NCBI RefSeq assembly: GCF_041260155.1
Contig: NW_027248277.1
Coordinates: forward strand, 21,769,877 to 21,833,876
Direction: 5' to 3'
Source: Ptychodera flava
Lineage: Eukaryota > Hemichordata > Enteropneusta > Ptychoderidae
Length of the DNA: 64,000 nt
Shown here: one piece after another, positions 938 through 53,867 of the stretch
Position numbering within the stretch: the stretch's first letter is position 1
Layout: every line of letters starts with the position of its first letter
Made by a program: the position numbers and the translations under genes
Notes under the pieces: generated by a model
Told to the model about the DNA's origin: nothing
The model's database searches: none
Seen by the model: the letters and a program-made list of their open reading frames with translations, nothing else

Positions 938-940
<3 letters not shown>

Positions 941-1575: not shown

Positions 1576-1860
1576 GTTGGTCCTTACACTGATCTCCGGT
1601 GATTGCCCACTTATTGATGCGATCTGATTATGCATTGCCATATCTTCATACAGGTATAACTCACTTTAATTGTGTTCTGTTGAAGATCTTGTGAAGTTTA
1701 GACCCTTTGGAAAATAATTGTCAACAAGTTGCAGAAATTTCCTACCGATGTTAGTTTCCACGTTCTTGCTGAAAGGGGGATTGACGTTTCCTGTCATTGT
1801 TTCTCCTCGCTAATTGGTTGTTCTTGACAAAGTCAATTTGTTCGGCGTATCCGCTTGCCT

Positions 1861-2425: not shown

Positions 2426-2436
2426 TCAAGCGAATT

Positions 2437-2461
2437 ATATATATATATATATATATATATA

Positions 2462-2518
<57 letters not shown>
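2437..2518. repeat. (TA)n microsatellite
   Basis: Nearly uninterrupted TA repeats that abut the 5' break of the PLE remnant. The PLE may have inserted into, or been truncated at, this tract. Confidence 0.9.
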
Positions 2519-2522
<4 letters not shown>

Positions 2523-3500: not shown

Positions 3501-3501
3501 T

Positions 3502-3855
3502 GTAAAAGGCTAGTAATGCTAACTTTTGATGATTATTTTCATTATTTTATTCAATACTCAATCACAAGTTCTTTCCTTACTTCAAAAAGAATATTAAAAC
3601 ACCTATTATTCAGCTTGTCAACATAGCGTCTATATCTGTAAAATTTAGTGTTATTGTTACATTTGAATTCTAGTCAGGACCAGAAATCAATTGTCAACAA
3701 AAATCACAGTTTACATAAATACAGGCCGAGTTGACACGCAGCGAACTGTATACATCAATATGCTTTATGTAGTAGAACAAGAAATTATGGTCGACATTTA
3801 AAGTAAGAATAGTGGGAAAAATCATCAAAAGTTAACATGACTTTGCCCTTTAATT
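3502..3855. mobile_element. Candidate MITE with imperfect inverted ends
   Basis: The left end reads GTAAAAGG then GCTAACTTTTGATGAT. The right end, reverse-complemented, reads TTAAAGGG then GTTAACTTTTGATGAT. The ends are inverted and about 35 nt long with mismatches, and a TTAA occurs at the right boundary only. An old TTAA-targeting MITE fits, but the left target copy is lost, so support is moderate. Confidence 0.4.
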
Positions 3856-4309
3856 ATATCTGTCACTTCACAGCTTTATGACTTTGTTCCAGATTCGTAC
3901 TAATGTTCAGCAAATGTTATTGTCGTATTACAAGAAATTTCTCTCCATGGATGGCGTCTGACATCTCTGTCGTTCACTTTGATTCAATAAACCCATCATA
4001 AAAACAAACAAAACTGCATTTCACAAAAGTTTGTACAATATGTTTTAGTGCACAGTTTTTTTCCTTTTTGTGAGAGTGAGGAAATTTCATAATAAGGTTT
4101 GCAGGACTTTCATTTCAAACTTCAAGTGCTGACATTCACTCTTGCTGTCAATTTTTATGCAATACAGCAATAACAACAAACACACAGACATGCATATACT
4201 GACCACATTTTGCCTGGTTCATACTACTATACATGAAATATTGTAGCTTATTTTTCATTCATTAAAGCAACATCCTAAAATTAAAACACAGCCGTCTGGA
4301 AGCCAAATG

Positions 4310-4640
4310 TAAGTTACAGTGCGTTGTCCTTGTGCAAAGTGTGAAAGACCTTGGTCAAAAACTCTTTGAGTATTGGCTATAGACATCAACTATAGGAAAC
4401 AAAATGGCCATCACACAGTCAAAATTGATTTTTATCCAAAAACAAATCAACATGCATATGTGTGATATAGGAGTAATCCTTGTACCAAGTTTAAGAGAAA
4501 GTGCTCCAGGCATATCCGCGAAATTGGCATAAACGGATGCATGGACTGACGCTAGGACCCTGGCACAGATATGACCGAATCCGCAGGGCCCCGGTCTTTG
4601 TATGTGGGGATTAACAAATTGCCACAAATACTGTTTCTCT
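4310..4640. repeat. Probable old interspersed repeat
   Basis: The text contains CTTGTACCAAGTTTAAGAG, GGCTATAGACATC and a CGGATGCATGGACTGACG stretch. Related phrases (ACCAACTTT, CTATAGACAT) recur at 34,970-35,230. This looks like a diverged interspersed repeat; I cannot name the family. Confidence 0.35.
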
Positions 4641-5020
4641 TTGATAAGACTCAATTTAAAGAGGCAGAACTCATTCTCTGTTTTTCGCATTGGTGAGTCC
4701 ACTACCCATGAGCTCAGTTTCAATGTTTTATTTACCATACCGATAGCAATATACACCAATCACAATCGTTTGGCAACTGGGCTCATCTCATAAACAGCTC
4801 TCTTGTGATCACGGCTCGTGTAGATAACCAATAGCACAGCAGTACTTTCTTGCTGCAGTATGAACTGAAATACGTCTCCTTGGTTCGTTAGCTCTTTGGT
4901 TGAGTTAGAATTGTAAGAAAGACAGCAAGATAGAAAGTGAATAGTAAACTCTTTGTTTAGCCATAGACTTGGACCCCTACGAAAACTTTTAGCGAAACTA
5001 AGATATGACAGCTCCTTCAA

Positions 5021-7440
5021 GAGTTCTTTTTTCTCAAAAGGAGATACATATACGGTAGTGTAGCCGGTGTATAGCCTGCACTTGGTCTTTGTGGAGGAAC
5101 TGTGGCCAGTGGTAGTCGCAATATGGCATCAACGATTGCTCGAATTGTGTTTGTTACAATACTGTACTAGTAAATAGAGATTTTTCTTATTTCAGCAAGC
5201 TATCTATCGCTTGAAGCGTCTCGATTCTTCGAAATCCATGAAAGCATGGAGGAAGAGACGGGAAAGCTTGCACTGTCCTGGTTTGCCCACTTGGAATTAT
5301 TCTGACATTATGCACTACGGCTGCTGCAAAATAACGACCTCACAATTCTTTAAAATATGCTTGCCATAAATTAAACATAGAAAGCGGGGTCTTACGTTTC
5401 ACAGTCTACGGTTCACGTTATTCTCCACTTGTGATCTGGCTCACAATAACGCTTTTGCTAAGGCCCTATTGGTCATGAAAATGTTATTGTCACGATCCCC
5501 TATTGAAGGAAATTCTACTTTTAGGAAATTACCAACTTTCTTTCTCATTAATTTTGAAAGTCATCCAATCAAGTTTACCAAGAATTTCTCTCCGTCTTTG
5601 TTGATCGATCGAATTATTTCTCATCCTCAATGTTCTCTCTTCTTTGAACAAAAAAAATAACTAACCTTGTGGGAGGAACCTTGCTCTAGTTAACACCTTT
5701 GTCTAGTGGAGTTGGCATGACATCTCTTGTCCGTAAGCTGTAAGCAACTTACCCTGAACACCGTCTGTTCAAAATCGATGGGCCTGAGTCAGCATTCAGT
5801 TCGTTAAAATATTGCATAAACAAAAGGTTTGCTTCCTTGCGATAAAATAACCCTTTTGGGATCACTACATCATCCAACAGTAAAACTTGTGTATATATGA
5901 AATATTTTTATATTTTGGCATGAAAATATTTATACAGAAGTTTTACCAGGTCTTCAAAGTGGGTATAAAGTAAGTGAATTGTGATCAACGTTTTCCGCAG
6001 AGGTAGCTACCTTTATGTTGGAAATCTGAACTCGCAAGAAATGGTTATCTTTTTAAAAAACTGGTGAGATCAATCTTCTAGCTTCTAACTCAATGCTACG
6101 ACCTCTTTCCTCCATGGATCTGTTATTTTGTGCACAGTAAACACACAAGGCGGCTTGACAATTAACTTTTCTATCAACACAGTCAATGAAAATAGAGGTT
6201 AGGTCACAAACCACAGATTGGCGTTCTAGTTCACACAGTTATTTGATTGACGTTTATTTTCAAATAACCTAGGATGTCTCTTGCCTAGTTTTACAACAAA
6301 CCCGAAATTCGAAAACTGCTGAAAATCACCACTCTCCAATGACCATTCGAGGAAATAATGCCATGGTTCGATAACTAACATAGTTATGATTACATCTTGT
6401 GTGCATAGGTTTGACTTTGAGAACGAAAGAGATGGCAAAAGCCACATTTTCGGGAGCATGTCTCCGTTTGTGTTACCCCTTTAATAACATTTCGCATTAT
6501 GAGGGTCGCAATTACAGCTGCAGTTCTATTTACACCATGAGCTATATTAAAAGCTATTTAATGAAGAACACACATTTGCTGCCAAATAATTGAAAAATCA
6601 TGCAATTCCACAATCCGTTCATCAAAGCTGAATGTTTTACAATCCAACTTGAACGTGATTGGCCGAATGGCGTATCAGAAGAAAGTGTGTTCATACAAAA
6701 CTGAGGAATGGGTAAGAACAATATTTGGACATATTGATCAGTATAAAATTTGGCACGAAACCCACACAAGTAATCTAAACATCATCTGAAGTGTTTTTAT
6801 TGTCAAACTTTTATATCAGCAAAAGTGGTGCATCTATGTAGAAGATTTACTTACAGCACATTTCACATCATTTTAATCAAATTTGTATGAAGTAATATCG
6901 AGCAAGGTTCTTGAGCAACTACTGAGGAAAACTTTTGTCTCCATTGTCATGATGTGTATTGTTTCCAGTTCATGTTACTTTCATCTCATTCAATTTTCTG
7001 TCACAACACACTTAGGCCTACTAATTTGCGGGAAAAGAAAGAATTGGACTGGTATAAGTCAGCGTAGGAAATTAACGTCAGTCCTGCGGTCCGCGACCGA
7101 CTGTTTTCCCGTTGGACCGAGAGTTTCGTCACGTAGGTGGTCCTTGGTGACCGACTGAAATATTACACTCTTCATTTGCGGTTACATTAGTTTTGTTGCT
7201 TTTATTTCGAAACTTTCTCTGGATAAATGCTTGTACAATTAATTATCTATGGCACGGCACAGCGAAACATTGCACGAAAGTTGACCTGATCAGGTCAGCG
7301 GGTCGTGAACTGTTAGGATTATAAGGCGATAGATTTGTTTTCATTACAGCGTACGTAATTGGCTATCACAATTTTCCGCCTATGAAATCATTCCATACAT
7401 CAAACTGTGACGTGTTGCACACACGCTGAAGCACTGGCGG
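5021..7440. other. No gene recognised
   Basis: Several 60-90 codon open frames occur on both strands, but none shows a known motif or consistent splice boundaries. Upstream exons of the Roc-COR gene could lie here. I looked for a P-loop GxxxxGK[ST] and a switch-type DTxGQ and found neither. Confidence 0.45.
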
Positions 7441-7447
7441 TTATTTT

Positions 7448-8300
7448 CCGTGTTCAAGATGTTGAGGTTTCTGGAAGGCTGTGAGCCGCCCAAAAAGAAG
7501 ACAAAACAACACCCCCCCCCCCCCCCGAAGAAAAACTTTGCCATCAGAGAGAGTATGACAAAACACGAGGGCGAGATCATTTCAGTCTTCATGGCAGGTG
7601 GAATTTTGGGACTGGCTGCTGTACGATAATGACAAGATGTACTGCATGACCTGTCGCAAAGCATATGGTGCTCTCTCCGTCAATAAACTGCCAATACCAT
7701 GTAAGTCGTCCTTCTTCAATAATTCTAAGAACCCGTTTGTTGTGGGAACAGGTAACTTTAGACACTCAACGTTGACTGCCCACGCAAAATCTGAATATCA
7801 AAAATTTGCTGTTGAAGATGTTCGAAACTGTAATGCGCCAGCTGGGAAGAGTTAAGCTGAGATGGCATTGCAGAAAATGAGTACTGCACTTTTCGGTAAA
7901 CTTAGCCACCTTTTCCGAAATGCACATGCCATATGTCTGTCAAACCGTCCCTTCAGTGATTTTATCTGGATGTCGTCCCTTGATGAGAGAAAAGGTTTAG
8001 ACTGATGTTGGACAGACATATCGGAATAGCAAGGCATGCCGCCACTTCATCTCAGCGATCAGTGAGATCAACATACTTGATTTGATTGATCTAGTCCTGA
8101 GTCTGCCAGCCAGTAGTGCCAGTAGTGCAGAATGTGAACGGGGATTTTCCATTATGAAATTGACAAAAACTGACTAAAGAAACAAACTGTCTTCTCAAAG
8201 TATGACAGATTATGAGAATTAAATTGCATTCTCCAAACATAGAGGATTTTGATCCCACACCAGCAATACATATGTGGAATTCAGGTTCAAACAGACAACG
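7448..8300 (+). pseudogene. hAT-like transposase relic (ZNF862/C17orf113-like)
   Basis: The N-terminal part reads WDWLLYDNDKMYCMTCRKAYG followed by FVVGTGNFRHSTLTAHAKSE, resembling the TTF/BED-like zinc-binding module of hAT-derived ZNF862-type proteins. About 80 codons later comes LPASSASSAECERGFSIMKL and KLHSPNIEDFDP, the C-terminal hAT dimerisation region (SSA--ER-FS-MK--KT--RN-L). The large catalytic middle is missing, an in-frame stop lies at 7853, another stop follows LTKTD, and a 2-nt deletion disrupts TDLMRI. It is a DNA-transposon-derived pseudogene with a central deletion, lying on the same strand as the Roc-COR gene. Confidence 0.7.
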
Positions 8301-9195
8301 CAGACCAAACGTCATGGCTACAAGTTCAGCTTTGTTGACGGATATGCTTGCCAGTGCTGGTGAGCAGTGTTCTTCTTCTGCTGATGCTGAACAAAGCAAA
8401 TGTGCTGGAGATAGTGACTGTGATTCTCTGACAGAATCATACTGAATCATGTGGTTCAGATTTTGAGGACAACCCTGAAAGTGATGAAACTGACCTCTTG
8501 GATTTAGCAGACAGTATTGATTAGTACCCATACCTTATACAATTCAAAGAAACAAGGACAGTGTCATCTTTTTGCAGACTTTTAGTGATATTATAATAAA
8601 AGTTAACAAACATTAATTTTAGTAACCCATAGCTGTCCATTTTGTTCATAAAATAAAAGACAAACTAATTCTTTAGTACTATCATCAAAACACTGATTTT
8701 GAACTGAGATTTGAACTTGCATAAACTTGTAGACCGACTGAGTGAAGGACCGGCAGTTTTCATGGCGGACCTGGAGTTTTTGAGTACTCTTGGTCCTTCT
8801 GACCGGTTGAAATTTCTCCTTAATTTCCGACACTGCTTCAGCCATTACATTATTTCCCCAACAAGTCTTAGCAACAGCCGATACCGCGCATGTGAAGTAA
8901 TACATGTGTGTCTTGTTATAACTCTTCTCTTGAACTGAAGGGCTAATCATGTTTAACATATTTTGATGCAACCAAGATTATTGTGCAACAAAGCCACCAT
9001 GTGACACATACTGATTACATTTGGGAACAAGACAAAAGTGAATCATCATATTGAGCAATGTAGTTGCATGAATAATCAGGTGTACGCTTTAATTTATCGT
9101 GGTGAATTCCATATTCTAGGTTACCACAAACCAATTTGGTTTCACAGGAGGTGTCTAAAAGTTATATAACATGAGATTCGAATAAATTCTTGCAG
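8301..9195. other. No gene recognised
   Basis: The sequence continues past the hAT relic to the acceptor of the Roc exon. The open frame at 8711-8938 (+) has no recognisable domain. Confidence 0.4.
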
Positions 9196-9341
9196 AGTTC
9201 CTGTCATTCTGGATGCATTCAATACATACACATGCAAAACCTGGAGGTAAAATACAAGTTGGTTTACAGGGCAGAGTGAAAAAGGACGTTATGACTCCAC
9301 CTATTATTGTCATTGGAACGAAAAAAGACCAGCTTGGAGAG
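9196..9341 (+). CDS. Roc GTPase domain, C-terminal exon of a Roc-COR-glycosyltransferase gene
   Basis: The exon is bounded by the acceptor ATTCTTGCAG and the donor GAG|GTAAAA. It starts with two bases completing a codon and ends in phase 0. It encodes FLSFWMHSIHTHAKPGG and then PPIIVIGTKKDQLGE. TKKD is the G4 guanine-specificity motif (T/N-K-x-D), and the F-W--SI preceding it is typical of the last third of Roc (Ras of complex) domains in Roco proteins. The next exon begins in phase 0 with the helix entering COR, exactly as expected. The P-loop and switch motifs must lie in upstream exons that I did not find. Known Roco proteins use GTP binding to regulate dimerisation or linked effector domains. 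Confidence 0.75.
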
Positions 9342-9549
9342 GTAAAAAAAAAACATATTTCTGCTTTATGTTTAAATGTATTTAGATTATTTAGATCTTT
9401 CGCCGAGTAAGGCGATATGTTCATTGCTCTGATCAAGTTTGTTTGCGATGTGTGATGGCGATCAAGTGTGTGAGTGCGAGTGCTTTACGAACCCTACAGC
9501 GTGCGCAGGGGTCGCAGTCAGAAAAATTATAACAACGTAGGTCTGTTAT

Positions 9550-9632
9550 CGCCGATTTGGCCGAGCGGTTCCGACTGTGATGTCTTCCCTAGGTTACTGG
9601 GTGCCGTGCGTTGTGAGTTCAAATCCGATTGA
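9550..9632 (+). ncRNA. tRNA-like sequence (pseudo-tRNA or SINE head)
   Basis: TTTGGCCGAGCGGTT resembles an A box of a class II (Leu/Ser-like) tRNA, and GAGTTCAAATCCGA about 50 nt downstream resembles a B box. The acceptor arms do not pair, so this is not a functional tRNA. A tRNA-derived SINE or tRNA pseudogene within the Roc-COR intron is likely. Confidence 0.5.
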
Positions 9633-11759
9633 AAATCTACATATCACTGGGTCAAAATGCTAATTAAACCTACAAAATATAAAGTACATTACAAGTACTT
9701 TCTGATAAGGGAAATGATAACTTACATTTAAAGTACCATTCATTGCTTTTAGGTGTAATAATGGGAATAAAAATACTGCCATTACTAGTAGATGAATATA
9801 CCACAAATGCTATGCAGAAATTCAATAAATATTCAATTTTCACTACACTTTGAAAGCTTTGCAATAATAACATTCTTACAGTGACAGTAGTGGGGCCGTT
9901 AATTAGTTTATGAGGTAATTCTGTTCGAATATCTGTTTGCTTGTTTGCTGGCAGTCATTTTATCTTTTTTCAAACAAACCCGTACTTACGCTCAAGATAG
10001 ATTACTGTCCGAGTAAGGAATTTTGTCTATTTTGGCTCTTTTGATCAATTTAAGTTAAACATTCTTATATTCCTGTAAGAAAAATATCTCTGCCAGGCCA
10101 AGATTCAATTTTCTAGGGCCAATCAATTTTCTAAGGCTAATAAAAAGTTAGTCAGTTTGAATTTTCTGACCATTTTTAACATTGACAAAATTTGCTTATT
10201 TAGTCTCAGTCATTTGACCAACTTATGATTAACGAACATGCATCTACCTGCTAAAATATTTCTAACAACTTGGTAAAGTAAATCAAATCAATCATTTCAA
10301 GTGTAAAAAGATTTCCATTTTTTAAAGATTTCATCAGCTCATTTGCATTAAAGTAATTGTAAAGGCGTGGTAGGCACACACTTAAATTTGCATCGACGTA
10401 GAAATGTACCAACTAAAGTTCAAAGCCATAGGCTCCGCGATTTTGAGTTTCTAATTTTTGACCACTTTTCACATTTACATTGCTTATTTGTATTTCATTC
10501 ATTTATTCTATGAAGTTTGGTTTGAAATGTATTTACATACAGTTAAAATCTTATATAGCAATGTTAAAGTTACAGGGAAAGTTTTTTTCTTATTTTGAAT
10601 TTTTTTAATACCCCTCGCTGAGTTGTATATTCTTCATTTGATCAACATGATTTGAACAAACCACAATCGTCATCATAATAGGAGGCTTTGTACACGATTC
10701 CAGTGTATCAAAGCAAGTGCTACCGCAAATAAGATTTTTTGCCAATATTCTACATTTCTTTTGCTTACTTGCATGATTATCCTGTGATCAACTTGGATTG
10801 AACAAAGCAGATCTGTAACCGATTATGACCATTCTCGCAAAAGTTTAAAACTCAAGGCTCATTGCTTTGGGCGTTAAAGATTCCCCATCATTTCTTCATT
10901 TATATAATGCCCAATCTTACTTTTGAGCCATGACATTAAGATTTCAGAAAGTTCATCATTGAGGGGTGTACCATTTGATATTGTTCGGTGGACGGCTTGG
11001 AAGATTGACTGTGGAGCATTAGTTTTTTACTCCCTGCTTCATCAGGAATTATTTTTTTTCAGTTTGTGAATTCTGGCATCTTTTTCACTTTCCCTCTCAT
11101 AATTACATAATTACAAAATTATGAAATGCCAATATTTACCGCTGTACCCTTTACTAGAACAAGATTACTGATGTCTTAATATGTAAGAAAACTACAACCA
11201 CTGTCAGTGATTAAGTTTGGTCTAAGTAGTAGGCTAAAGCATGTGGCACAAAACGACTAAGGATTTGAAAGACAGCAAATGCATAGTGGTAATTAAATAG
11301 TACAATAAATCCAATTACATTAGAATGGTTAGGAGGGGGTCCCTCCTGATACATGAGATTTTGAATCTTACTTATTTGGATGAGATCATTTGGAAAGGTC
11401 GGTACATGTTAAACAACAGCAAAGGTTTGGTCTAAATATTAATCAAATCAGGGCATTAATGACATGAAATGTAATGAATACAGATGTTACGAAAATAGTT
11501 TAAGGTGCCGGAAGTTTGTGCAGATATTGTAAGATATCTGAAAATGGTGTGCCTTAAGAGCACGCTGACAATTAAAGATGTTATGACATGGGGTTCCCAA
11601 AATTATAAGTACAAACGTTTATCCCGAATCTTCCTAGCGACCCCAATCCATTATATCACATGGTCCAACCATAAATATAGAGTTAAGTTGATAAGTGCCA
11701 ATATTTTCGAGAAAACTGAGTGGGATAAACGCATGCATGCATGCATTTATCCAACTTAG
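9633..11759. other. Intron sequence without recognised features
   Basis: This is AT-rich intron 1 of the Roc-COR model. No exon-like segment or transposon terminus was recognised. Confidence 0.45.
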
Positions 11760-11956
11760 TTACATAGATACAGAGATAGATACATAGATAGATAGATACA
11801 TAGATAGATACATAGATAGATAGATAGATACATACATACATACATACATACATACATACATACATACATACATGCATGCATGCATGCATGCATGCATGCA
11901 TACATGCATACATACATACATACATACATACATACATACATACATACATACATACA

Positions 11957-11990
<34 letters not shown>

Positions 11991-12025
11991 AATACATACA
12001 TACATACATACATACATACATGCAT
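11760..12025. repeat. Compound (GATA)n/(CATA)n/(CATG)n microsatellite
   Basis: About 265 bp of tetranucleotide repeats with GATA-type, CATA-type and CATG-type blocks. The repeated Met-Tyr-Val-Cys-type open frames on both strands come from the repeat and are not genes. Confidence 0.95.
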
Positions 12026-12454
12026 GCTTGTATATCCTCCCTTGCTCTTGATCTTATTGACGGACTGGGCAAATTATTAACAAGTTGAAATGAAAATGCA
12101 AAATTACTTCCATTACTGATAAAGCAAAGTATTTTCAATGTATGTAGCAGATTTCATCAACATTAATAAATTCAGATATATAATCCTAATAAGGATAGTT
12201 TGTTAAATATATAATTAGCTTGTTGTATAAATGCTAAATGACTTACTCGTTACTGTTTAACATAGTATCTTCAATGTACTTAGCAGAATGACCACATGTA
12301 TATCTCTTGTGAATAGGCCCCAACAACTTATTAGTTCTTGCCATTCCATAACAGTACTTTTACTAGATTTTGATTCAGATCCGATAGGCTTTTCTTGAGG
12401 TAATATGATAATATTAGGTCTTTTAATCAACTACTCTATGTCTACTCTTTACAG

Positions 12455-13661
12455 GAAAAAGCCAGAAAGCGCCTTTTGGAAATCAAACACTACCTTGATA
12501 AATCTGTTGGCCCAGCAAATAACCATATTGTTGACTACATCGCCATAGACAACAAACCAAGAGGTTTCTTCAAAAAATCTCCTGATCCTGAAATTGCAAC
12601 CCTCCGACACTTGATTAAGAAACTGGCATCACACCCCTTCTTTGCTGATGAAGTACCACTGAAATGGGTTCTCCTGGAATTGGAGCTGAGAAAACAAAAT
12701 AAAGACACAATGCAATTGAGAGAAATCTACAAAATAGGCAACGATGTAAATCTTAGTGAAGAAGTCGTCGATGAGGCACTAGCTTTCTTTCACAGCATCG
12801 GGGAGATTTTACATTTTGTTGACATACCAAACATCAGAGATACCGTGATCCTAAATGTTAGCTGGTTGGTTGACCTCTTCCGTATTATCATCACACAATC
12901 TGTAACTTTCAAGACAGATCTCAAAGCCCCAGCTAAGGTTGCTTGTCAAATAGATGACCTATTGAACGAAGGGAGGCTGTGTGAAGGTTTGGTTGATTAC
13001 TTGCTTGACCATCACCACCGATCGCAAGATAAAGGAATTGTTCTCGAGGTTATGGAAAACCATGACATTATATACAAGATGTCAGATTCAGTATATTGCC
13101 TTCCATGCCTACTTCAAAAGGAAGCGAAAGATGATTCAATGTTGCCCGCTGGTTCAGTCTCCCGAAGAGCTATTAACTTCCATTTCGCTGGAAATTTTCT
13201 GCCTGAAGGAATTTTCTATCGTTTGGTGGTTCGATGTCTGAAAGAATGGTCAATAAAAGATGTGAAATTACTAAAGCATCAAGCCCGTATATATAAAGAA
13301 GGCTTTCATGTCACCCTGCGAAAACGTAAGGCTGACATTGAATTAAACATCCTAGTCAATAATGGGCAACCGGTAACCAGTGAAGAAGCTACAGGGGCAA
13401 CTGCTGTCCGTGTTCTTGTAGAAAGGGAGCTGAAATACCTCATCAAAACATATACACCAGGACTGTCCTTTCGATTATGTGTAAAGTGTCCATGCAAAAA
13501 GCATAATTCAGAGAGCACAATGCCTGGGAGTGAGCTTATGGACTTAGATGATAGTTGCGTTGATATTGATCAAGCTGTACATCCCTTAGAAGCTGTCTGC
13601 TATAGAAGTGTCACCCCAGTTCCAGGATGTCAAGAGGATATGAAACTCTGGTTTTCACCAG
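12455..13661 (+). CDS. COR domain exon of the Roc-COR-glycosyltransferase gene
   Basis: A 1,207-nt exon with acceptor TCTTTACAG|GAA and donor CCAG|GTAATT, phase 0 in and phase 1 out, open for 402 codons. It starts EKARKRLLEIKHYLDKSVGP. The middle has LASHPFFADEVPLKWVLLEL, then EEVVDEALAFFHSIGEIL and VILNVSWLVDLFRIIIT, the classic COR order (P--W--LE, F-H--G-I--F, P-WL---F--I). After about residue 200 a winged-helix-like portion includes SDSVYCLPCLLQ and AINFHFAGNFLPEGIFYRLV. The tail holds CVKCPCKKH and an acidic ELMDLDD. COR mediates dimerisation of Roco proteins and couples GTP state to output. The Roc end lies 3.1 kb upstream in matching phase. Confidence 0.85.
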
Positions 13662-14522
13662 GTAATTTTGTTCTGTTTTCATTTATGTAAACAACTACCA
13701 TAACTATACTTATACAATGTACAAATAACACGTTAATTACCAAACTCTTATAATGTTAAAGACGATATAAATTATTTTCGTTGCTGTTTCGACCCGTTTT
13801 GAACATTATCATACGAGTAGGCGGAAGGAAAGAAAGGCACAGAAATTTACGTCTCAATCAATCTATAGCTTTTTTGAGAACAAAACTTGACTGAATCTCA
13901 ACGAAACGAATACTGTAACGTCAGTCCAGCCGGCCACGCCCTACCCTTGTTGCAATCATGGTCCCTCCTATATTACAATGCTTAAGGAACCCACTTTAGA
14001 AGGAGTAGCTTTGAGTTCATTGTTTCAAACAATTTTGATATAATTCATTTGGAATATACGGGCATTTCCCTCTCGTGTTTCCACTGTTCAAATTGTTATT
14101 GTCATAGCCTATTAAAATGTCATTACATGATTTTCAGACGTATTTCAATACTAGTCTTTGTGAAGTGTTGGGAAGTGTACTAGAAAACGCACATACGTCG
14201 TCAGAACAATATATTATGTTTAGTGCATATCTGCTGAAAATCAGAGATGACGATAGGTGACCCTGCATAGGCCGAGTCATGATACCACACTTTCTTAATT
14301 TTGCAGTTTACTAACATATTGAGCGTTAGCATTAATGAGATAGAGATATTTTTAAAATACTGTAAAACCAATATCTCACTTAAAGGGTAAAAGTGATACA
14401 AATATTTTCGATACAATGTCATTATTTCTTAATAACTATATACATGTTGCGTGTATGCATCTGTGTGGGTAAGTTGCAAAAAGAAGTAATATACTGTTGG
14501 CTTCTTACTTCCTTCTGTTCAG
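13662..14522 (+). other. Intron between COR and first linker exon
   Basis: 861 nt with a GTAATT donor and a pyrimidine-rich acceptor CTTCCTTCTGTTCAG. No other feature was recognised. Confidence 0.55.
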
Positions 14523-14654
14523 AATACCATGTGCCTCGGCAGCAAAGTGACGCTCCAAAGCATCCCTTAAGACAGTCGCAAGTGATGCAAACGAAAACAA
14601 AGAAACATGGCCAAAGAACACCAAACGTTTGCCATGACACTAAGCAATTATTGG
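14523..14654 (+). CDS. Linker exon 1 of the Roc-COR-glycosyltransferase gene
   Basis: A 132-nt candidate exon with a strong acceptor (ACTTCCTTCTGTTCAG) and donor TTGG|GTGCGT. It enters in phase 1, matching the COR exon, and leaves in phase 1. It encodes a basic, glutamine-rich segment beginning EYHVPRQQSDAPKHPLRQ. No domain is recognised and it looks like a flexible linker. Support comes from splice signals and phase fit only, without homology. Confidence 0.5.
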
Positions 14655-15182
14655 GTGCGTTCTCCGTGGAATATTTTTCTAAGAATAGCTTCTATAATAT
14701 TTGTGTGCATCCTATCTAAGTATTATTTAAATATGAAAAGTAAATATAAAGGGTAGTTATAGTTGGTAAAAATACGTTTCTGTTCGTAGAAACCATTAAA
14801 GATCTTAAAAAATAGGACATTGAAATAATACCAGTTCCTTTCTTATTCTGTGACCCTCCATCCCTGTTACTGAAATAGAAATAGTCGTAATCTGAATTCA
14901 CATTCTCCAGGTCATTACATCCACGGCGTTGGTTGATTGGATTTGTTCAAAGCCATCGTCCTTAAATATGTAAAGAGTTTTTGCCGGTGACTGCTTCAAT
15001 TTTCATTGCCAAGTTGGTTTTACAAGCCGCTGACTTTTGGTATTGGAAAGTTGAGTTGCTTTTACGTGCAGCAATGCATGCTGGTTCACAGTTCACACTA
15101 TTCTGTTGATCGGCAACACGCACATACGTGATGTCTCTGTTGCAAGTGTACTTTTCATTTCAAAATTAGGTGCAATTTCATA
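14655..15182. other. Start of the large intron, no feature recognised
   Basis: This is the beginning of the 8-kb intron of the Roc-COR-glycosyltransferase model. Nothing distinctive is visible before the hairpin at 15,183. Confidence 0.4.
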
Positions 15183-15272
15183 GCCTTGTGCTCTGTGCAC
15201 TTGCTTCTTCTGTCGTGTTGGAAGTGTAACCGGCCGTATGGCCAACACGACACAAGAAGCAAGCGCAAGGCC
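15183..15272. repeat. Short foldback hairpin
   Basis: Arms pair across a short loop: CTTGCTTCTTCTGTCGTGTT on the left and AACACGACACAAGAAGCAAG on the right, with GCCTTG/CAAGGC at the outer ends. No protein or RNA gene is recognised. It may be a small foldback transposon remnant. Confidence 0.6.
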
Positions 15273-15357
15273 CTTAGCTACAACTATTGCAGCTATTTCT
15301 GGATGTGATTCAAGTGGAAATTTCACAAAATTGTCACTTTTTTATCCAGGGATTATA

Positions 15358-16950
15358 AGCTCCGCTGTCAGTGACGCAGAGCTTATCAAATAGGTTGATT
15401 TTTCGTCGTCGTCCGTCGTCCGTCGTCGTCGTCCGTCGTCGTCGTCCGTCGTCGTCCGTCAACAATTGCCTTCTCCTCAGAAACCGCAAGTCCAATTGCT
15501 TTGAAATTTTATATGCAGTTCACTTGGGGTGACCTCACTTAAGTTTGTTCAAATCGTGGTGAAATTGCAAATTTGTATTTTTGGGGCATTTTTTGTGTTT
15601 TTGGTAAAAAAAAATCTTCTTCTCTTAAACTGCTTGTCCGATTGCTTTGAAATTTGATATGTAGTTAGGGTGACTTCAGTAAGATTTGTTCAAATTGTGG
15701 TGAAATTTGCCTATTTGTAATTTTAAGGCAATTTTGCCATTTTTGGTAAAGAAATCTTTAAAAATAATCTTCTTCAAAACTACCAGTCAGATAGCTTTTA
15801 TATTTGGTAATATGTCCCTAGGGATGATCTATTTGAGATTTGTTCAAATTGTGCAGAAATATGCAAATTTGCATTTTTAAGGCAATTTTTGCCATTTTTG
15901 GGTCAGAAAATGTATTTCTCAGAAAGTACTGGTCTGATAGTTTGAAATTTGGTATACGGGTTTCTATAGAAGAACTAAGTAATATATATTGAATTTCTGA
16001 TGAAATCTGTAATTTGTATTTTTGGGGCAATTTTCGCCATTTTTGGTCAAAAAATGTGTATTTTCAAAACTACTTATCTGATAGCTTTGCAATTTGGTGT
16101 ACAGGTTCCTACAGATGAACTGAATGATATTTATTGAAATTATGATGAAATCTGCAATTATTTTTGGGGCAATTTTTGCCGTTTTCGTTCAAAAAATGTG
16201 TATTTCAAAAACTACTCATCTGATAGCTTTGCGATTTTGTATACTGGTTCATACAGATCACCTTAATGATAGTTATTGAAATTATGATGAAATCTGCAGT
16301 TTTGTAATTTTGGGGCAATTTTTGCCATTTTGGTCAAAATGTGTTACTCAAAAAGTACTGGTCTGATAGCTTTGAAATTTGGCATAAAGGTTTCTACAGA
16401 TGAGCTCACTAATATATATTAAATTTCTGGTGAAATCTGTAATTTTGTATTTTTCGGGCAATTTTTGCCATTTTTGGTCAAAAAACGTGTATTTCCAAAA
16501 CTACTCATGTGATAGCTTGAAATTTGGTATACAGATTTCTATAGATGAACTCAATGATATTTATTGAAATTATGATGAAATCTGCAATTTTTGGGCAATT
16601 TTTTTTCCATTTTTGAACAAAAATTGTGTTTCTCAAAAAGCACTGGTCTAACAGCTTTGAAATTTGGTAACAGGTTTCTATTGATGAACTGACTTTGATC
16701 TTTTGAAATTATGATGAAATCTGCAATTTTTGTTTTTGGGGGCAATTGTTGCCAGATTTGGTCAGAAAATGTAATTTTCAAAAAACTACTCATCAGATAG
16801 CTTTGGTTGACATGTTCATAGGCATGATCCGATGTAATATATTCAAAGTATGATGAAATCTTTAATTGTGTATTTTTGCAGCTATTTTAGCCACTTTTTG
16901 CTGGCCAATGCATTGAGCTATCAAAGATTGCCACCTTCTTCATCAACATG
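15358..16950. repeat. Tandem-repeat element, copy 1 (CGTC tract plus about 142-bp units)
   Basis: It begins AGCTCCGCTGTCAGTGACGC, then TTATCAAATAGGTTGATTTT and a CGTC-rich tract (15,403-15,460). About ten diverged 140-145 bp units follow, each containing GATAGCTTTGAAATTTGG, a TTTCTACAGATGAACT-like phrase and TTTTTGCCATTTTTGGTCA. The end reads GAGCTATCAAA. The same structure occurs at 37,489-39,271, so this is a dispersed repeat family. No coding capacity is seen; phenylalanine/lysine-rich open frames arise from the units. Confidence 0.85.
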
Positions 16951-17099
16951 TGTCAAAAATAGTTATTCAATTCAATTCAATTCAATAGAACTTTATTTAT
17001 CCCAAACATGGGCAATTAAAAAGCGTGGCTCAAATACAACATCAAAAAAATATATATAATACAAATTTACAAAATGGTAGGAGACGCAGGACTATACAA

Positions 17100-17653
17100 A
17101 AAAACAGTTTAGGAATCATTTAAAAGCCGCACAGCGGTTGGAATGAATGACAACTTGCGCCGGTTTGACCTGCAAGCCGGGTATCTAAAACGCCGACCAG
17201 AGGGAAGTGTGTCGAACTCTGCTGATAAAATATGATCACAAGACAAAAGAATTGAGCGGGCTTTCCTGAGTACTTGCTGATTATAAGCGTAGAAAGACTT
17301 CTCTGGGGTATACCAATTAGTTTTGAGCTAAGTGAAACAATTCTATCAAGTGAAGTTTTGTTTTTACAGACAGATTTTGATACCAACAAATGAATGAAAA
17401 TGAGATAACGCTTTCAATGTAAGATTTATAAAAAAGAGATAAAATTTGTCTATCAACCATGAATGAACGCAGTTTCCTTAAAAAGTACAATCTTTGCTGC
17501 CCCTTCTTCAGTATAGCATCGGTGTTATGATCCCATTTCAATTGTTGTCAAATATTGAACCAAGGTATGTATACTTCGAAACAATCTCGACTTCTTGATC
17601 GTGAACAATGGACGTAGGAGGGTTGCGTCTTGCCTCCTAAAATCAATTATCAT
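17100..17653 (-). pseudogene. LINE RT C-terminal region
   Basis: Continues the same LINE after the insertion: MIIDFRRQDATL, then KWDHNTDAILKKGQQRLYFL and LRSFMVDRQILSLFYKSYIE, with SLDRIVSLSSKLIG further on. These are the usual thumb and C-terminal motifs of CR1/Rex-type ORF2. Several frameshifts are present. Confidence 0.8.
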
Positions 17654-18329
17654 TTCCAACACAATTGGAACTATTTTGTGATTATAAGATCTTGAGCATT
17701 TTGTTGTAATCTATTTAAAAATCACGAATCTAACAGTGTTTTTGTGTGAAGACGAGGGCAAATTTATAAATTATTGATAATAGCACAATCATCAAATACA
17801 CCTATAACAAATTTACATTTTTGTCTAGCTTTTCGCAGTCTCAGGAAAGGAGAACCCATTAAATGTAACTGATTTGTCAATTTTGTTTAGGTTTAAGTGA
17901 AAATACAAATTTCCTTTCCAAGGCTGATTTGTAGGCATTTGCTTTTCTCACCGAACGATGCATGATAAAATTTTAAATTTTCGATGGTAAAATGGCCTTC
18001 TACCTCTACCCAAATCAGTTCTGCTGTAGTGTATGTTTTTTTGGTGATCTCTCTTTGAAATGATTTGGTAGATGTTAAGAAAATGACTTGTACATTTATT
18101 TATTTCATATACAAGGAAATGAGACCTGGTAAATTTGATAAAACTACCCTTTTCTTGTGCTTGTACTAATTGATGCTGGAAACTTTTTAAAATCACTGAA
18201 CTATTTCAGCCCTTCTATTAAAAATGAACTATTTATGGTAGATGCAAAGAAATGTAATCAATATCATCTGTCTGTTGAAACCTTAAAATATTAACAGCAG
18301 GAACCAACAGTTTTTGTCTGGAATTTTTA

Positions 18330-18715
18330 GGGACTGTACAGAGATGTCTTTGCAGCTTTCAGAGACCACTCCGAGGAGACCCTAAATCTTTTAGAGACCA
18401 CACTGACATGACCTTGAAACTTTTAGGGACCACCCAGATGAGTCCTTGAAACGTTTAGGGACCACCCAGATGTGACCCTGAATCTTTCAAGGACTATCCT
18501 GATGTGACATTGAAACTTTCAGGGACCACCCAGATGAGTCCTTGAAACTTTCAGGGACCACCCAGATGAGTCCTTGAAACTTTCAGGGACCACCCAGATG
18601 TGACCCTGAATCGTTCAAGGACTATCCTGGTATGACCTCGAAACTTTCAGGGACCACCCAGATGAGACCCTGAACCTTTCAAGGACTATCCTGATGTGAC
18701 CTTCGCTCGTCAGCT
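18330..18715. repeat. 32-bp minisatellite block 1 inside the transposon
   Basis: About a dozen tandem copies of a 32-bp unit with the core GGACCACCCAGATGAGTCC followed by TTGAAACTTTCAG. Variants alternate GATGAGTCC, GATGTGACC and CTATCCTGATGTGACC. Confidence 0.9.
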
Positions 18716-19654
18716 TGTGCATTCACAAGCATTACTTGGTAAAGCTGACAGGCAGACGAATCACTGAAAAGATTTGGTCCAACTTCTGCACATACAGCGT
18801 CAATATTCATGACGGTCGAAGCTAAGATTATGTAATGCTTAACACAGCGTCCTCATCGCTCCATGTGTGACTGGTCGGCCGGCTCCAAAACACGTCTTTG
18901 CATATTTATCACGCGACGAGATCTACAAGGCATGTTCTTCCCGGCATAAATGTGATAAACTGGGCAGTGGCTGAACCTTCAGTCGACTTAGACAAGCAAG
19001 CCTTGACGATTAATGGTAATTTACTCGCTGGTTTAAGTATGCTGTTACTGGCCGACGCGCCGCGGTGTCTGAACAGTAAACAATTAATTATTCGCAAACA
19101 ATCAGTTCATAATGGCACATTCCATTTTATCCTACAGGGGCATCTAGGATTGTGCGATTGTGTAAGGTCCCGGGTAAGGTACATGTTGCTCTTTTATGCT
19201 GTAAAGTTTCCCACCATTTAAAATACTATGGTTGTATGTTACAGTCTTCATGATTAATTTGGAGATATAGTCAATGATACTTTTCTCATTAAGCGACACA
19301 CTGAATCGTACACCAACTAATATGGTCCTTGCTAATTTACATAGTAAAGGTCACGGGTTACATTGTTGTGAGGCTCTGCATTGTTTCAAGTCGAGTGTGT
19401 AAACAGCGTGATGTTCGAATGGATTTTGACTACTGCACTAATTCCGAGCGGGAAAGGTTGCCGATTCTGAATGTAGGACTTCCATTACCCCAATTATTTA
19501 ATGACAGGACTACATGGAAAGCAACGGAATATTGGATATCTCCGACGAATTGATGTCTGTTACCACGGTCCTTTGTGGAGTGACACTGACAGTGCTGTTC
19601 CCGATCCCGACAATGATGTCAGCGACTGTGATTGTAGCGTGAACATGACTAAGA
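18716..19654. other. Core of the transposon between minisatellite blocks
   Basis: Unique sequence with open frames of 107 and 74 codons (18,898-19,221 and 19,329-19,553, plus strand) that resemble no transposase I recognise. It may be captured host sequence. Confidence 0.4.
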
Positions 19655-20095
19655 CTATGAGTCCTTGAAACTTTCAGAGACCAACTGAGGTGTCCCCGAA
19701 TCTTTCAAGGACTATCATAATGTGACCTTGAATCTTTCAAAAACCGCCATTGCAAGACGAGTCTTTGAAACATTCAAGGACCACCCTGATGTATCCCTGG
19801 ATCTTTTAGAGACCACTCTGATGTGACCTTGAAACTTTCAGGGACCACCCGGATGAGTCCTTGAAACTTTCAGGGACCAACCTGAGGTGCCCCTGAATTT
19901 TTCAAGGACTATCCTAATGTGACCTTGAAACTTTCAGGGACCACCCAGATGAGTCCTTGAAACTTTCGGGGACCACCCTGATGTGTCCCTTAATCTTTTT
20001 AAGGGACCACTTAGATATGACCCCTAAACATTTTTAAAGACTGGCCTAGAGAGGCACTTTGAAATAGTAAAGAACCAATCAGATATGATCCCGAA
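19655..20095. repeat. 32-bp minisatellite block 2 inside the transposon
   Basis: Same unit and orientation as the block at 18,330-18,715, more diverged at its edges (for example GGGACCACTTAGATATGACC). The two blocks sit in the two halves of the transposon in direct, not inverted, orientation. Confidence 0.9.
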
Positions 20096-20429
20096 ACCTT
20101 CAAATGCATCCAGGTCCTCTAAACAATACAGCAATCATCAAGTTTTGACCTTTAATCTTGACATTTTCAAGAATGTGTATCAATGAGATGAATTATCCTT
20201 AAAAAATTGTCAAAAGGATAAATTTACAATTTTTGAAAAGCAGATGGCTTTAAATACTACAATTTTTTAAATACTACTTTAACATTTAATTCAATAATTA
20301 CAGTTTTGATGTTTTCACCAGAAAAATGATAATTACTACATGCTTTGAGTAAACCCTCTCCTAGAGGGCACATTCTGTGACTTTTACTGTTCATCTTATA
20401 ATCACAAAATAGTTCCAATTGTGTTTTCC

Positions 20430-21623
20430 TTAGTTTTCTTAACATTTAAGTTTAGATACGAATTATCACACCACTCAACAAACTCACTAAGAGCGGGACC
20501 ATGATGACATTCTGATCCCTGTAGAAGTGTAAGCAGAGCACTATCGTCAGCAAACTTAACAAGGTGGCTACCTTCATGTGTACTTCTACAATCGTCAGTA
20601 TAAAGGATGTACAACAGAGGAGACAGAACGCAACCCTGAGGAGAACCTGTATTTGTTTGAATGATACTTGACAAAATACCATTGACAAAACACCCTTTGT
20701 GATCTATTTGTAAGAAAGTCAATAATCCAAAGTACAAGTTGATTGCTAAAATTAAATTTTAAGAGTTTTTCTGCAAGGATGTGGGGTTGGATTGTGTTGA
20801 AAGCACTGGAGAAATCTGCGAAAAGGATTCTTGCATGAGCACCTGTTTTTTCTAAGTGTTTGTACAGTGTATTGAGAATGAAAAGCTTAGCATCTTCAAC
20901 ACCTTTTCCCGGTCGATATGCAAATTGTAGGGGGTCTAGTTTGTTGCCAACCTTTGTCAGAATAATGGACTTAATTATTTTCTCAAATGTTTTCATTACC
21001 AGGGAAGTAAGAGCAACAGGTCGAAAATCATTGGGTTCTTTAGGGCTAGCTTTCTTTGGGACTGGTACTACTATAGAATTTTTCCATATGGCAGGAATAC
21101 TAACTGTATCAAGAGAAACTTGGAAAAGGTGTTGTAAGACTACACTAAGCTGATCAGCACAGAACTTCAGGGTGCGACCACAAATACAATCAGGACCTGG
21201 ACTTTTGTTCACATTTAATGATTTTAAAGTTTTAGCTACTTTCTCTGTCTCAATAGACATCCCTAACTCAGGAGACAATGACTGTTTTAGATTTGAGATT
21301 TGAGATGAAAAATCCTCTGTTTCAAAACGAGTGAAGAATGTGTTCAGGACCTTTGGCAGCGCCGCTGAGTCTAAGTTATTTAGTGTAACTTTTGACTCTG
21401 AAGGAGTAACCTTATTTACTGCTGCCATATGCTTGATACCTTGCCAAGTAGATCGAAAGTTACCAGAAAGAAACTTTGATTGAATTTTATTTTTATAATC
21501 TAACTTTGCCTGCCTAATCGCTCTCTTGACTTCTTTGTTTATCAACTGCTTCTCGCCTGATGTACCCTGAAAAAAGATTCTCTTCTTCTGGTTGAGAATA
21601 GATTTTAATTTTTGGTCACCCAT
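20430..21623 (-). pseudogene. LINE reverse transcriptase, main part
   Basis: The long frame runs from DQKLKSILNQKKRIFF through NKSPGPDCICGRTLKFCADQ, IPAIWKNSIVVPVPKK, FRPVALTSLVMKTFEKII and LFADFSSAFNTIQPHIL. A frameshift near 20,700 leads to TGSPQGCVLSPLLYILYTDD and LVKFADDSALL, the catalytic FADD. It ends at KKTKE, where the DNA transposon is inserted. The motif style fits the Rex1/CR1 side of the Jockey superfamily. Confidence 0.85.
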
Positions 21624-22262
21624 GGCTTGTTATTGGGGAAAATTTTAACATTTTTCGTAGGAATAACAGAATCCGCACAAAATGAAATATAGGAAGAAAC
21701 GACATCGGCAAGTTGATTAAAATCGATACAAGAATGATAAAACATCTCCCAGTCAGTACATTCGAAACACGCCTGTAAGCTAGAAATACTGTCTACTGAC
21801 CAGTTCTTCACAGTTTTTGTTACTCTACGAATCCGCTTAATGACTGGTTTATAGATAGGGGCAAGCATTACAACATTGTGATCTGAAGATCCAAGAGAGG
21901 GCAACGCAAAAGATTTGTATGCGTCAGGAACTGTACCATAACACCTATCAAGTATTTTATCAAAACGAGTAGGACACGAACATATTGGTGGATATTTTTT
22001 GCACTCTTACTAAAGTCACAATGATTGAAGTCACCAAGTACAAACTTCGGAGCATCCGGGGCAAGTGATTCCAATTTCTGTAAATTATTTGATATGTGTT
22101 CAGCTGCTGTAGAAACATTCGCTCGTGGGTGTACGTAGACTAAAGTGAAAAACAATTGAGAAAATTCTCTGGGAATGTAGAACGGACGAAGAGAAATAGA
22201 CAATAGCTCAATATCAGGTGTGCACATTCCATCACGGACATTCTCTACATAAACACAGCAGA
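21600..22262 (-). pseudogene. LINE AP endonuclease C-terminal part and connector
   Basis: The frames contain PDIELLSISLRPFYIPREF, FTLVYVHPRANV, FVLGDFNHCDF and, after a frameshift, LGSSDHNVVMLAPIYKP. GDFN and SDHN are conserved metal/phosphate-handling motifs of apurinic-type endonucleases used by non-LTR retrotransposons to nick target DNA. The N-terminal third is lost at the 5' truncation. Confidence 0.8.
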
Positions 22263-22680
22263 GCTATATCGGCCGCTAGGTCGCTTGTGTAATAAGTTTC
22301 AATTGAAATAGCACTATGAAATTCCGTGTCAGTTAAGCTCGGAAATTGTTGTTAACTTTTGCAATGGTTTTCTGTTACTATCTCTCTAATCTTGGAATGC
22401 CAATTTATGAGATATAATATTCATGAGAATGTAAATCGTGTCAGTATTTGCTTTCTTTTACAACTTCTTGGATGTAATTTAATTTTTGAAAGTTACTGAG
22501 CGTTCAAGTGGCCTTCAACAATAGGGCCATAAATGAGCATAATTAAGCATCTACATGTATGACAGATTAGTCCCTGTCCTAGTATTACTGCATTTTTGTG
22601 TTGCCCTACTAGGGGTAATACTCGGACGAGTATGGTGTAATGAATATTGTCCTCTCTTCACAATTTACCTTATTTTCCAG

Positions 22681-22735
22681 AAAAGGAAGCAACTATTGGG
22701 ATATCTCAGAGATCTGAAAGGAATGTCAGTGGCAA
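22681..22735 (+). CDS. Linker exon 2 of the Roc-COR-glycosyltransferase gene
   Basis: A 55-nt candidate exon with acceptor CTTATTTTCCAG and a perfect GTAAGT donor. It enters in phase 1, matching the previous linker exon, and leaves in phase 2, matching the glycosyltransferase exon. It encodes EKEATIGISQRSERNVSG, with no recognisable domain. Phase agreement on both sides is its main support. Confidence 0.5.
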
Positions 22736-23013
22736 GTAAGTTACCACTTATTAGAATATTCAATAGCAACACATGTGATGAACTTATGGTTATACTTATA
22801 TACACAAAATGATGACTGTTTATCACATAAATGCCTAACATTTCCTGACAAGGTGGGCATTAAGTCTACTGCAGATTATCTCAATATTTGGAAACCACTA
22901 GAGCTAAATAACACAACTTTTCCACTCAAAAATAATTTAAACACGCTACTTAATTTCAAATTAATTTTATCTGGAAATGGTTAATTGAAGAAACATTGTC
23001 TTTGCATCAAAAG

Positions 23014-24241
23014 GAAAATACTTCTGGTTAATGATGAGTGGGGAACTACCAAAGGTGGCATTTCTACAGTCAACAGACATGTTTCACAATTATTGGCTGA
23101 AACTCAGCAGGAAGTCTACGTAACAGCTCTTGAAGCATGCAAAGAAGATAAAGAAGATGCAGAGTCTAAAGGTATTCATCTTGTTCTCCCGGAAAAGCAT
23201 CACTCCGACAAGAAACCCTCAGTTGATTGGTTGACTGATTATCACTCAGTTCACTTTCCACAGATAAAACAGATGGAGAATGTTAAAGTAGTCATTGGCC
23301 ACATGCCAATAACAGGTATGGCTGCTCTAAATATCCACAAGGACTGTTTTCCTTCAAAGAAAGTGAAAACAGTGCTATTCAATCATGTCATACCAGAAGA
23401 CACGGAAATACATAAGGACACGTGGACACCCACAAAAGTTGAACAACAAGAAACTGAACTTTATCGCCAAGCAGAAATGGCCGATGTAGTCTTCTCCGTT
23501 GGCCCGAGAATGTACAGCCACTTCGAAAACAAATACAGAAAGCTAACATCTGTCAAGCATGAACTCTTCTTGCCAATGCCAGATGAAAGGTTCTTTGCCG
23601 TGTCAATGAAGCGGCCATCATTGGATTGCAAAATCCAGATCATTACATTTGGCAGAGTGACGGGTGTTGCTAACCTGAAAGGATATGATCTTGCTGCAGC
23701 TGCTCTTAGCAGAGTTGTAGAATCCCGCAATAGGAAGAAACCTGACCAAGATCCTCCAGTTTGGTTAATTCGAGGGATTCCTGAAGGACACGGGGAGGAG
23801 TCAAAGAAGTATGTTGAGAGGCACATAACGACTGGTCACCTTCAGTGCAATCTGTATCCTTATGGAACCCAAGACCAGATTCGAGATGACCTACAGCAAA
23901 GTCACCTGTGTCTAATGCCATCACGTAGTGAGCCTTTTGGTATGGTTGGTCTTGAAGCCATTGCAACTGGTGTACCAGTCCTGCTAACCAAGCACTCAGG
24001 GCTTGCAAAGTTCCTGATTAAATACTTCCCAGAGGAAATACACAAAGAAGTACTCGTTGATGCTGGTCTCAATGACAAGGAGAAGGAGAAAGATGTTCAA
24101 CTATGGGCTAAACATATAGAACGTATTCTTGACAACTATGACGCAGCGTTCGATAGGGCACAGCGTATGAAAGAGCTTCTGGAGCATAGCGAGGAAGTAA
24201 AAAAAACTCATGAGGTATTCAAGAACATATGCTGTGAGTGA
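23014..24241 (+). CDS. GT4-type glycosyltransferase domain, terminal exon of the Roc-COR gene
   Basis: The acceptor GCATCAAAAG supplies the one base needed to complete a lysine codon, then KILLVNDEWGTTKGGISTVN follows. GGIST is the acceptor-side glycine-rich loop of GT-B fold, family GT4 enzymes. Later come FGRVTGVANLKGYDLAAAAL and, near 23,920-23,970, PSRSEPFGMVGLEAIATGVP. The latter contains the E-x7-E pair (SEPFGMVGLE) that contacts the nucleotide sugar in retaining GT4 enzymes. The C-terminal helix ends at a TGA after NICCE. About 409 codons cover a full GT-B domain. No signal peptide is visible, so a cytosolic location is inferred. Substrate is unknown. The frame also stays open upstream to about 22,985, so a stand-alone gene remains possible. 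Confidence 0.8.
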
Positions 24242-29362: not shown

Positions 29363-29710
29363 GTGTTGGCCGGCAACTGGTGGTTTCTTTTGCCGAAATA
29401 CGATAACATGCTCGTTAAAATGGCATGTAAAGATCACGATGCTCGTTCGTCTCAGTCCTCTGCTCAAGATGGCTTCCTCACGTGTGCGTATACGTGTATA
29501 GTGATGACTCTGGTGGTACGTGTTGAGCGCGAGCTTCGAAGTTGGAAAGTTGTGGGTATACTACTCCTCCTTTTGTTGTTATCCGGTGACGTTGAGTTAA
29601 ACCCCGGTCCAAGGAAGTCGACGAGAGGGGCCCAACAGAGAAGCATCACCGAAGCCCTGAAAAATAAATCAAGTGACGTTACTAGTACACCAGTCTCCAG
29701 TGTGAGTTGA
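29363..29710 (+). pseudogene. LINE N-terminal leader with 2A ribosome-skipping peptide
   Basis: The frame contains a leucine-rich hydrophobic stretch directly followed by GDVELNPGP (DVELNPGP encoded by 29,588-29,611). D-V-E-x-N-P-G-P is the complete 2A consensus, which makes the ribosome skip the glycine-proline bond. APE-type LINEs of sea urchin, amphioxus and molluscs are known to carry 2A at the ORF1 N-terminus. The run of leucines in front could also act as a signal-type segment if skipping fails. A frameshift near 29,700 now separates the leader from ORF1. Confidence 0.8.
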
Positions 29711-53861: not shown

Positions 53862-53867
53862 ACTCAC

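Follow-up and report, generated by a model that had tools for sequence, protein, structure and literature searches.

Within a 64,000-nucleotide stretch of the genome of the acorn worm Ptychodera flava (contig NW_027248277.1, positions 21,769,877 to 21,833,876 of the forward strand; called the window here, with positions counted from its first letter), we found five plus-strand exons which, with high confidence, make up one gene of the Roc-COR type (Roco) carrying a C-terminal family 4 glycosyltransferase (GT4). We consider it probable that the product is a Roco-type protein with a GT4-conflict domain as C-terminal effector, a GTP-switched immune glycosyltransferase in which the GT4 is an exchangeable cassette. 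The exons, the long third intron and the evidence for each are the following.

9196..9341, plus strand: exon 1 (internal), the Roc stretch past G3 through G4 (GTKKD), 49 amino acids (splice sites, phase; tblastn to P0006)
12455..13661, plus strand: exon 2, end of Roc, COR-A and COR-B (Pfam; P0001 alignment; structure model)
14523..14654, plus strand: exon 3, a 44-amino-acid linker (phase 1/1; P0001 37/44 identical)
14655..22680, plus strand: intron 3, 8.0 kb, with satellites and a minus-strand reverse transcriptase open reading frame, ORF (RVT_1, tandem repeats)
22681..22735, plus strand: exon 4, an 18-amino-acid linker micro-exon (phases 1/1, 2/2; P0001 16/18 identical)
23014..24241, plus strand: exon 5, the complete GT-B/GT4 glycosyltransferase domain and the stop codon

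When the exons were rebuilt from the sequence, all four introns between them were bounded by GT-AG and the junction phases (0/0, 1/1, 1/1 and 2/2) agreed, confirming the five-exon chain described in a first-pass annotation of this DNA; the joined frame runs for 922 amino acids without an internal stop and closes with a TGA at 24239-24241. The phase of exon 1 requires one base supplied by a preceding exon, so the gene has at least one more exon ahead of it. A P. flava gene model located on a 47-Mb contig, P0001 (like all the relatives used here, a predicted model), was collinear with exons 2-5, with 272/312, 37/44, 16/18 and 376/409 of the aligned residues identical. It contains COR-A, COR-B and GT4, has no counterpart of exon 1 or of some 90 residues at the start of exon 2, and is the best relative of the window GT4 (92% identity in GT4). 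No protein identical to the window GT4 region was found in the searches with that region, and P0001, judging from the sequences, may be a paralogue or a diverged allele of the window gene.

We considered, and rejected as very improbable, that two neighbouring genes, one Roco and one GT4, had been wrongly joined. In favour of such an arrangement, exons 3 and 4 are separated by 8 kb of intron, rich in repeats and containing a reverse transcriptase ORF, and P. flava and Saccoglossus have many GT4 proteins of ~410 amino acids, too short to hold a COR. However, P0001 joins the same four exons, and an 18-residue linker exon matched there at 16/18 residues makes an accidental joining hard to credit; the same domain order was found in P0006, P0009 and P0124; and the first in-frame ATG of the GT ORF lies at 23273, already inside the GT domain, with no separate start codon, as had been envisaged before 23,014, ahead of it in that frame.

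Pfam matches in the exon ORFs identified COR-A (2.7e-17, 63.4 bits, cut-off 35.3) and COR-B (2.6e-6, 27.8 bits, cut-off 27) in exon 2, and the GT4-conflict family PF20706 in exon 5 (5.1e-81, 273 bits, profile 1-373 of 385), whose 26-bit cut-off is unspecific, with matches above it in 14/14 control genomes, so that only high scores such as this one are informative. Together with the collinearity of P0001 over exons 2-5, these matches uphold the earlier proposal of a single Roc-COR-type gene with a C-terminal GT4 of the GT-B type. The COR model was of moderate quality (mean pLDDT 69.0), and the 11 matches in the Protein Data Bank (PDB) retrieved by Foldseek at E<=0.001 were all Roco, LRRK1 or LRRK2 structures, many of them with a high root-mean-square deviation. 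A Roc-COR family profile matched LRRK2 Roc-COR at 1.2e-15 and also bacterial Roco COR. The window gene thus has the Roc-COR tandem in common with human LRRK2 and other Roco proteins, whose structures its COR model matches; LRRK2 carries a kinase and no glycosyltransferase.

The model of the GT domain (pLDDT 92.1) adopted a GT-B fold, with PDB matches that included metabolic GT4 enzymes (sucrose-phosphate synthase, BshA and MshA), the structural alignment (VIA-align) covering Foldseek's own top chains. Columns G24/G25, H106, R224, K232, and E316 with E324 (EX7E), were invariant in all 16 rows compared, 10 from animals and 6 from bacteria or metagenomes; they are candidate catalytic and donor-binding positions, corresponding to the glycine loop, the R/K pair for the donor phosphate and EX7E of GT4 enzymes, and at the level of sequence the window GT4 looks catalytically intact. 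The fold matches would also suit a glycosyltransferase of routine metabolism or of the secretory pathway that carries a COR by chance, but all 21 NCBIfam models reported for the GT exon scored far under their cut-offs, as against 273 bits for PF20706, and its relatives combine GT4 with death-fold, NACHT, LRR and ankyrin partners, making this explanation quite improbable.

The relatives of the window GT4 were collected by scoring the 7993 candidates that shared most words with the query, taking proteins of 0.55-1.75 times its length, so the counts that follow are lower bounds. At least 79 proteins were recovered, all listed with PF20706, 69 from animals and 10 bacterial or metagenomic. A search of animal proteins for Roc or COR together with a glycosyltransferase, as the first-pass annotation had proposed, was productive: at least 18 of the 79 carry a Roc or COR accession beside the GT4, 3 of them from P. 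flava and 15 from Branchiostoma. A DED accession was found among the partners of these proteins; the others correspond to Death, CARD, NACHT, caspase, OTU, LRR and ankyrin. This company, and the fact that the best model for the domain is the Pfam 'Family 4 Glycosyltransferase in conflict systems', support the immune-type context suggested earlier; by analogy an immune-type role is fairly likely, and the window protein would be cytosolic. Our own profiles, run over 167 fetched proteins, placed COR in 29, GT4 in 156 and both in 18, a figure which includes P. flava P0124 and misses P0034 (COR-B only in the precomputed list).

Among the P. flava models, P0001, P0009 and P0124 (COR-GT4) and P0006 (Roc-COR-DED-GT4) have the domains in the same order as the window gene, P0001 being collinear through both linkers. 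P0006 differs from the window gene in having a DED between COR and GT4 and is placed among Roc-COR-DED genes devoid of GT4. P0089, another P. flava model, is 86% identical to P0009 over 445 residues, and the contigs that carry the two are equal in length. The lancelet models (15/18; e.g. P0017, P0023, P0024, P0033, P0041 and P0054) resemble the window gene in combining Roc and/or COR with GT4-conflict in one predicted protein, but many of them have ankyrin or LRR regions, their CORs fall in three distant lineages, and their GT4s, 37-42% identical to that of the window, form a separate lancelet group. One Branchiostoma lanceolatum model, P0004, holds GT4-Roc-COR-GT4 in a single predicted protein, its two end GT4s belonging to different lancelet GT4 groups.

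The histories of the two domains were compared in trees. The GT4 tree had 93 rows, namely the window, 67/68 of P0001-P0068 (P0056 was dropped, its GT4 span being <300 amino acids), the second GT4 of P0004, 9/10 of P0069-P0078 (P0075 dropped) and 15/80 bacterial loci, with P0079 left out; it was midpoint-rooted, and the tree tool gave a long-branch warning. Hemichordate and lancelet GT4s formed two groups (99/98 and 96/98), within which the GT4s bearing Roc-COR were scattered among those with Death, DED and other partners (the NACHT label of P0046 comes from the name given by its source), and the fewest changes of the Roc-COR label over the animal rows was 12. The COR trees had 29 rows and no bacteria, since L005 and L020, like P0034, fell below the COR profile; P0124 was dropped as too short, and the rows of the window and P0001 were trimmed. 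In them the lancelet CORs bearing GT4 fell in an ankyrin type, an LRR type and the pair P0004/P0047, whereas the window, P0001, P0009 and P0089 formed one clade (95/92), so that the fusion in these four may be a single event. P0006 stood within a four-row group (100/98) of Roc-COR-DED genes. Approximately unbiased (AU) tests rejected monophyly of the 20 GT4 rows from animal Roc-COR proteins (p 4e-45) and of five hemichordate COR rows that carry GT4 or its beginning (p 0.005); both groups were chosen with the trees already in view, and the p values are weaker for it.

Identities in 17 chosen pairs showed the same kind of clash. P0017 and P0024, both from B. lanceolatum, share 87% in GT4 while their CORs cannot be aligned (25% over 48 positions); for P0017 and P0027 the values are 84% in GT4 and 21% in COR; and P0042 and P0041, both from B. 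belcheri, share 94% in COR and 45% in GT4. Other pairs were concordant (P0017-P0030, GT4 83% and COR 91%; P0042-P0033, 80% and 89%; P0024-P0027, 87% and 73%), showing that exchange is not universal. The 'COR' value of 90% over 762 for the window and P0001 includes GT4, these two rows being untrimmed in this comparison. One ancestral animal fusion kept unchanged was discarded as an explanation, being opposed by both the AU tests and the clashing identities, although losses could add to the gains and some models may be chimeric. The Roco-GT4 family appears to have been put together anew several times in lancelets and acorn worms, probably in the service of innate immunity, and the best reading is that GT4 has been, over evolution, an exchangeable cassette mounted on various sensor or switch backbones.

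The first-pass annotation knew of no described Roc-COR-glycosyltransferase, but for bacteria the architecture is published: according to passages of an eLife 2021 paper (PMC8195603), GT4 is an effector-position domain of bacterial AP-GTPase-COR proteins with LRRs. A scan of bacterial genomes with one pattern gave 154 relatives, of which 80 were kept as loci, and the Roc-COR profile, built from animal proteins and therefore liable to miss other bacterial Roco fusions, matched two of them. L020, from a Sideroxyarcus metagenome-assembled genome, is an example of the published architecture, a single LRR-Roc-COR-GT4 ORF of 1461 amino acids; in L005, the GT4 is in another frame than LRR-Roc-COR. As in the window gene, in the bacterial LRR-AP-GTPase(Roc)-COR-GT4 conflict proteins (PMC8195603, in the part available, and L020) the PF20706 GT4 follows Roc-COR in the C-terminal effector position. 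L020 differs in its N-terminal LRRs, none of which were seen in the window gene, for which the window shows no N-terminus. In the GT4 tree the 69 animal rows formed one group (100/100) across a long branch, and L005 and L020 lay among the 24 bacterial or metagenomic rows; because the GT4 of L020 groups with bacterial and not with animal ones, the animal fusions are probably separate assemblies. Direct descent of the animal Roc-COR-GT4 from a bacterial Roc-COR-GT4 block was discarded, the animal GT4s not grouping with L005/L020.

In the same sections of PMC8195603, GT4 is expanded in Acropora to >500 paralogues, GT4-TRADD-N is known in cnidarians, cephalochordates and hemichordates, and the role proposed for GT4 is the modification of invader or host molecules; the animal GT4 architectures of its Figure 6A may already include proteins of the Roc-COR-GT4 type. 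Its forerunner (PMC7159879) counts glycosyltransferases among bacterial conflict effectors. Coral proteins combining NACHT or NB-ARC with glycosyl transferase group 1, reported in the accessible parts of PMC4083563 and PMC12314368, resemble the window gene in joining an NTPase switch to a GT4-type domain within animal immune-type families, but they have NACHT instead of Roc-COR, and the comparison with the window GT4 amounts to one Pocillopora match, 26% identical. Shuffled ROCO genes have been put forward as candidate immune receptors in brown algae, the word glycosyltransferase being absent from the text available to us (PMC11378527). No description of an animal Roc-COR-GT4 protein was found in the open-licence literature searched, and the animal branch may be what is new here, the bacterial architecture being already published.

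The Roc domain read earlier at the head of the chain holds up in part. The G4 stretch (GTKKD) is present in exon 1, which is 57% identical to P0006 over 49 amino acids (tblastn, E 1.5e-11); the domain is, however, incomplete, and exon 1 by itself matched no Pfam family at E<=0.1. Coding for G1-G3 (P-loop and G3 box) was not found upstream in the window, at 1-9195, with tblastn using 11 Roc-bearing hemichordate proteins or with a six-frame motif scan that would miss a P-loop split by an intron. A P-loop-like string at 5708-5788 was set aside as not significant, being weak, containing a stop and giving a tblastn E of 0.97 at best. The window covers no N-terminus of the gene and only the G4 stretch of Roc; the Roc core is either beyond position 1 or lost, and this is the main uncertainty for any GTP switch. 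Because the P-loop and G3 were not found, we infer GTP control from two P. flava relatives with a complete Roc (GKT, DFAGQ/DFAGE and TKKD). P0006 has Roc (GKT, DFAGQ, TKKD), COR, DED and GT4 in order, and P0089 has Roc, COR, the linker and then the first ~20 residues of GT4, where the model ends; both models start at the P-loop, with no LRR region before it, but may be cut there.

The missing G1-G3, and the fact that P0001 also begins inside COR-A, at a Met matching window position 12710, tell against a GTP-switched immune enzyme; the concordant pairs and the late naming of the AU-test groups weigh against the exchangeable cassette. Both copies may be without a working switch, predicted models of relatives can be false fusions, and PADLOC recognised neither the window exons nor P0006 (on L020 it gave one weak, irrelevant match). 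The upstream gap and the start of P0001 would be explained by a COR-GT4 protein that lost its GTPase core in the window/P0001 pair, the G4 remnant and COR serving as a dimerisation scaffold and the GT being always on or otherwise regulated. Nevertheless, exon 1 is open and keeps GTKKD, and the phase of its acceptor calls for one more exon ahead of it. Roc is complete in P0089, which belongs to the sister pair in the COR tree, and with introns of up to 8 kb here an exon beyond the window is plausible; a P-loop interrupted by an intron would, besides, have escaped the motif scan. We regard this loss as unlikely, though to be taken seriously, and GTP gating of the window copy itself as somewhat doubtful. 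The absence of the Roc core from the window, and the P0089 model whose GT4 stops after ~20 residues, could likewise indicate that the gene is a decaying copy of the Roc-COR-GT4 family. That is improbable, given that the five exons are all open with intact splice sites, that the candidate catalytic columns are kept and that exons 2-5 are collinear with P0001 and 84-92% identical over the aligned residues.

If the product is, as we favour, a GTP-switched immune glycosyltransferase, a Roc core upstream (beyond the edge of the window, or lost from this copy) would combine with COR into a GTP-dependent switch of dimerisation or assembly, like those of bacterial Roco proteins and LRRK2, and a trigger would alter its on/off assembly state. 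The tethered, retaining GT4 could then act as an immune effector, taking sugar from a nucleotide-sugar donor and attaching it to a cytosolic molecule of invader or host. We infer the switching from Roco biology, to which the profile matches with LRRK2 and bacterial Roco COR point, and from the conflict-system context. Such a protein would be an animal glycosyltransferase under a Roc-COR switch, standing beside kinases as Roco outputs, and would offer a natural comparison for how the state of Roc-COR controls a tethered enzyme. It would also mean that a bacterial-type conflict effector is exchanged between receptor-like backbones in animals, consistent with the reports of coral NLR-like genes. 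Tentatively, deuterostome invertebrates could possess a modular intracellular immunity in which a GT4 'warhead' is swapped among Roco, NACHT and death-fold backbones, with GTP-gated cytosolic glycosylation as the effector.

The introns of the gene and its surroundings contain several repeats and transposon-like elements. Intron 1 has a 66-copy TACA microsatellite (11761-12025), and intron 3 a ~145-bp satellite and two minisatellite arrays of 32-bp units (15490-16900, 18356-18703 and 19657-20022). The reverse transcriptase ORF of intron 3 (RVT_1 2.9e-15, 20598-21629, minus strand) lies within a stretch that by eye looks like a long interspersed nuclear element (LINE; 20598-22263, minus strand), and the adjoining ORF at 21871-22263 (minus strand) matched no Pfam family. 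Two more LINE-like stretches were recognised by eye at 29686-33673 (plus strand) and 47160-51688 (minus strand); one of these two gave an Exo_endo_phos match (1.2e-6) and the other a CCHC knuckle under its cut-off (0.0025), three other ORFs scanned in them having no Pfam match. Similar tandem exons, as seen by eye, at 53833-59007 (minus strand) and 61657-62082 (plus strand) were weakly WSC-like, the two scanned giving E values of 0.0057 and 0.003, below the cut-off. A single-exon protein kinase piece (Pkinase 2.2e-43, profile 56-259 of 263) lies at 43943-44662 on the plus strand, the front of its N-lobe not being in the same ORF. Upstream of exon 1, a zf-C17orf113 zinc-finger ORF (1.2e-8) was found at 7559-7852 on the plus strand, followed by what by eye look like remnants of a hAT transposase.

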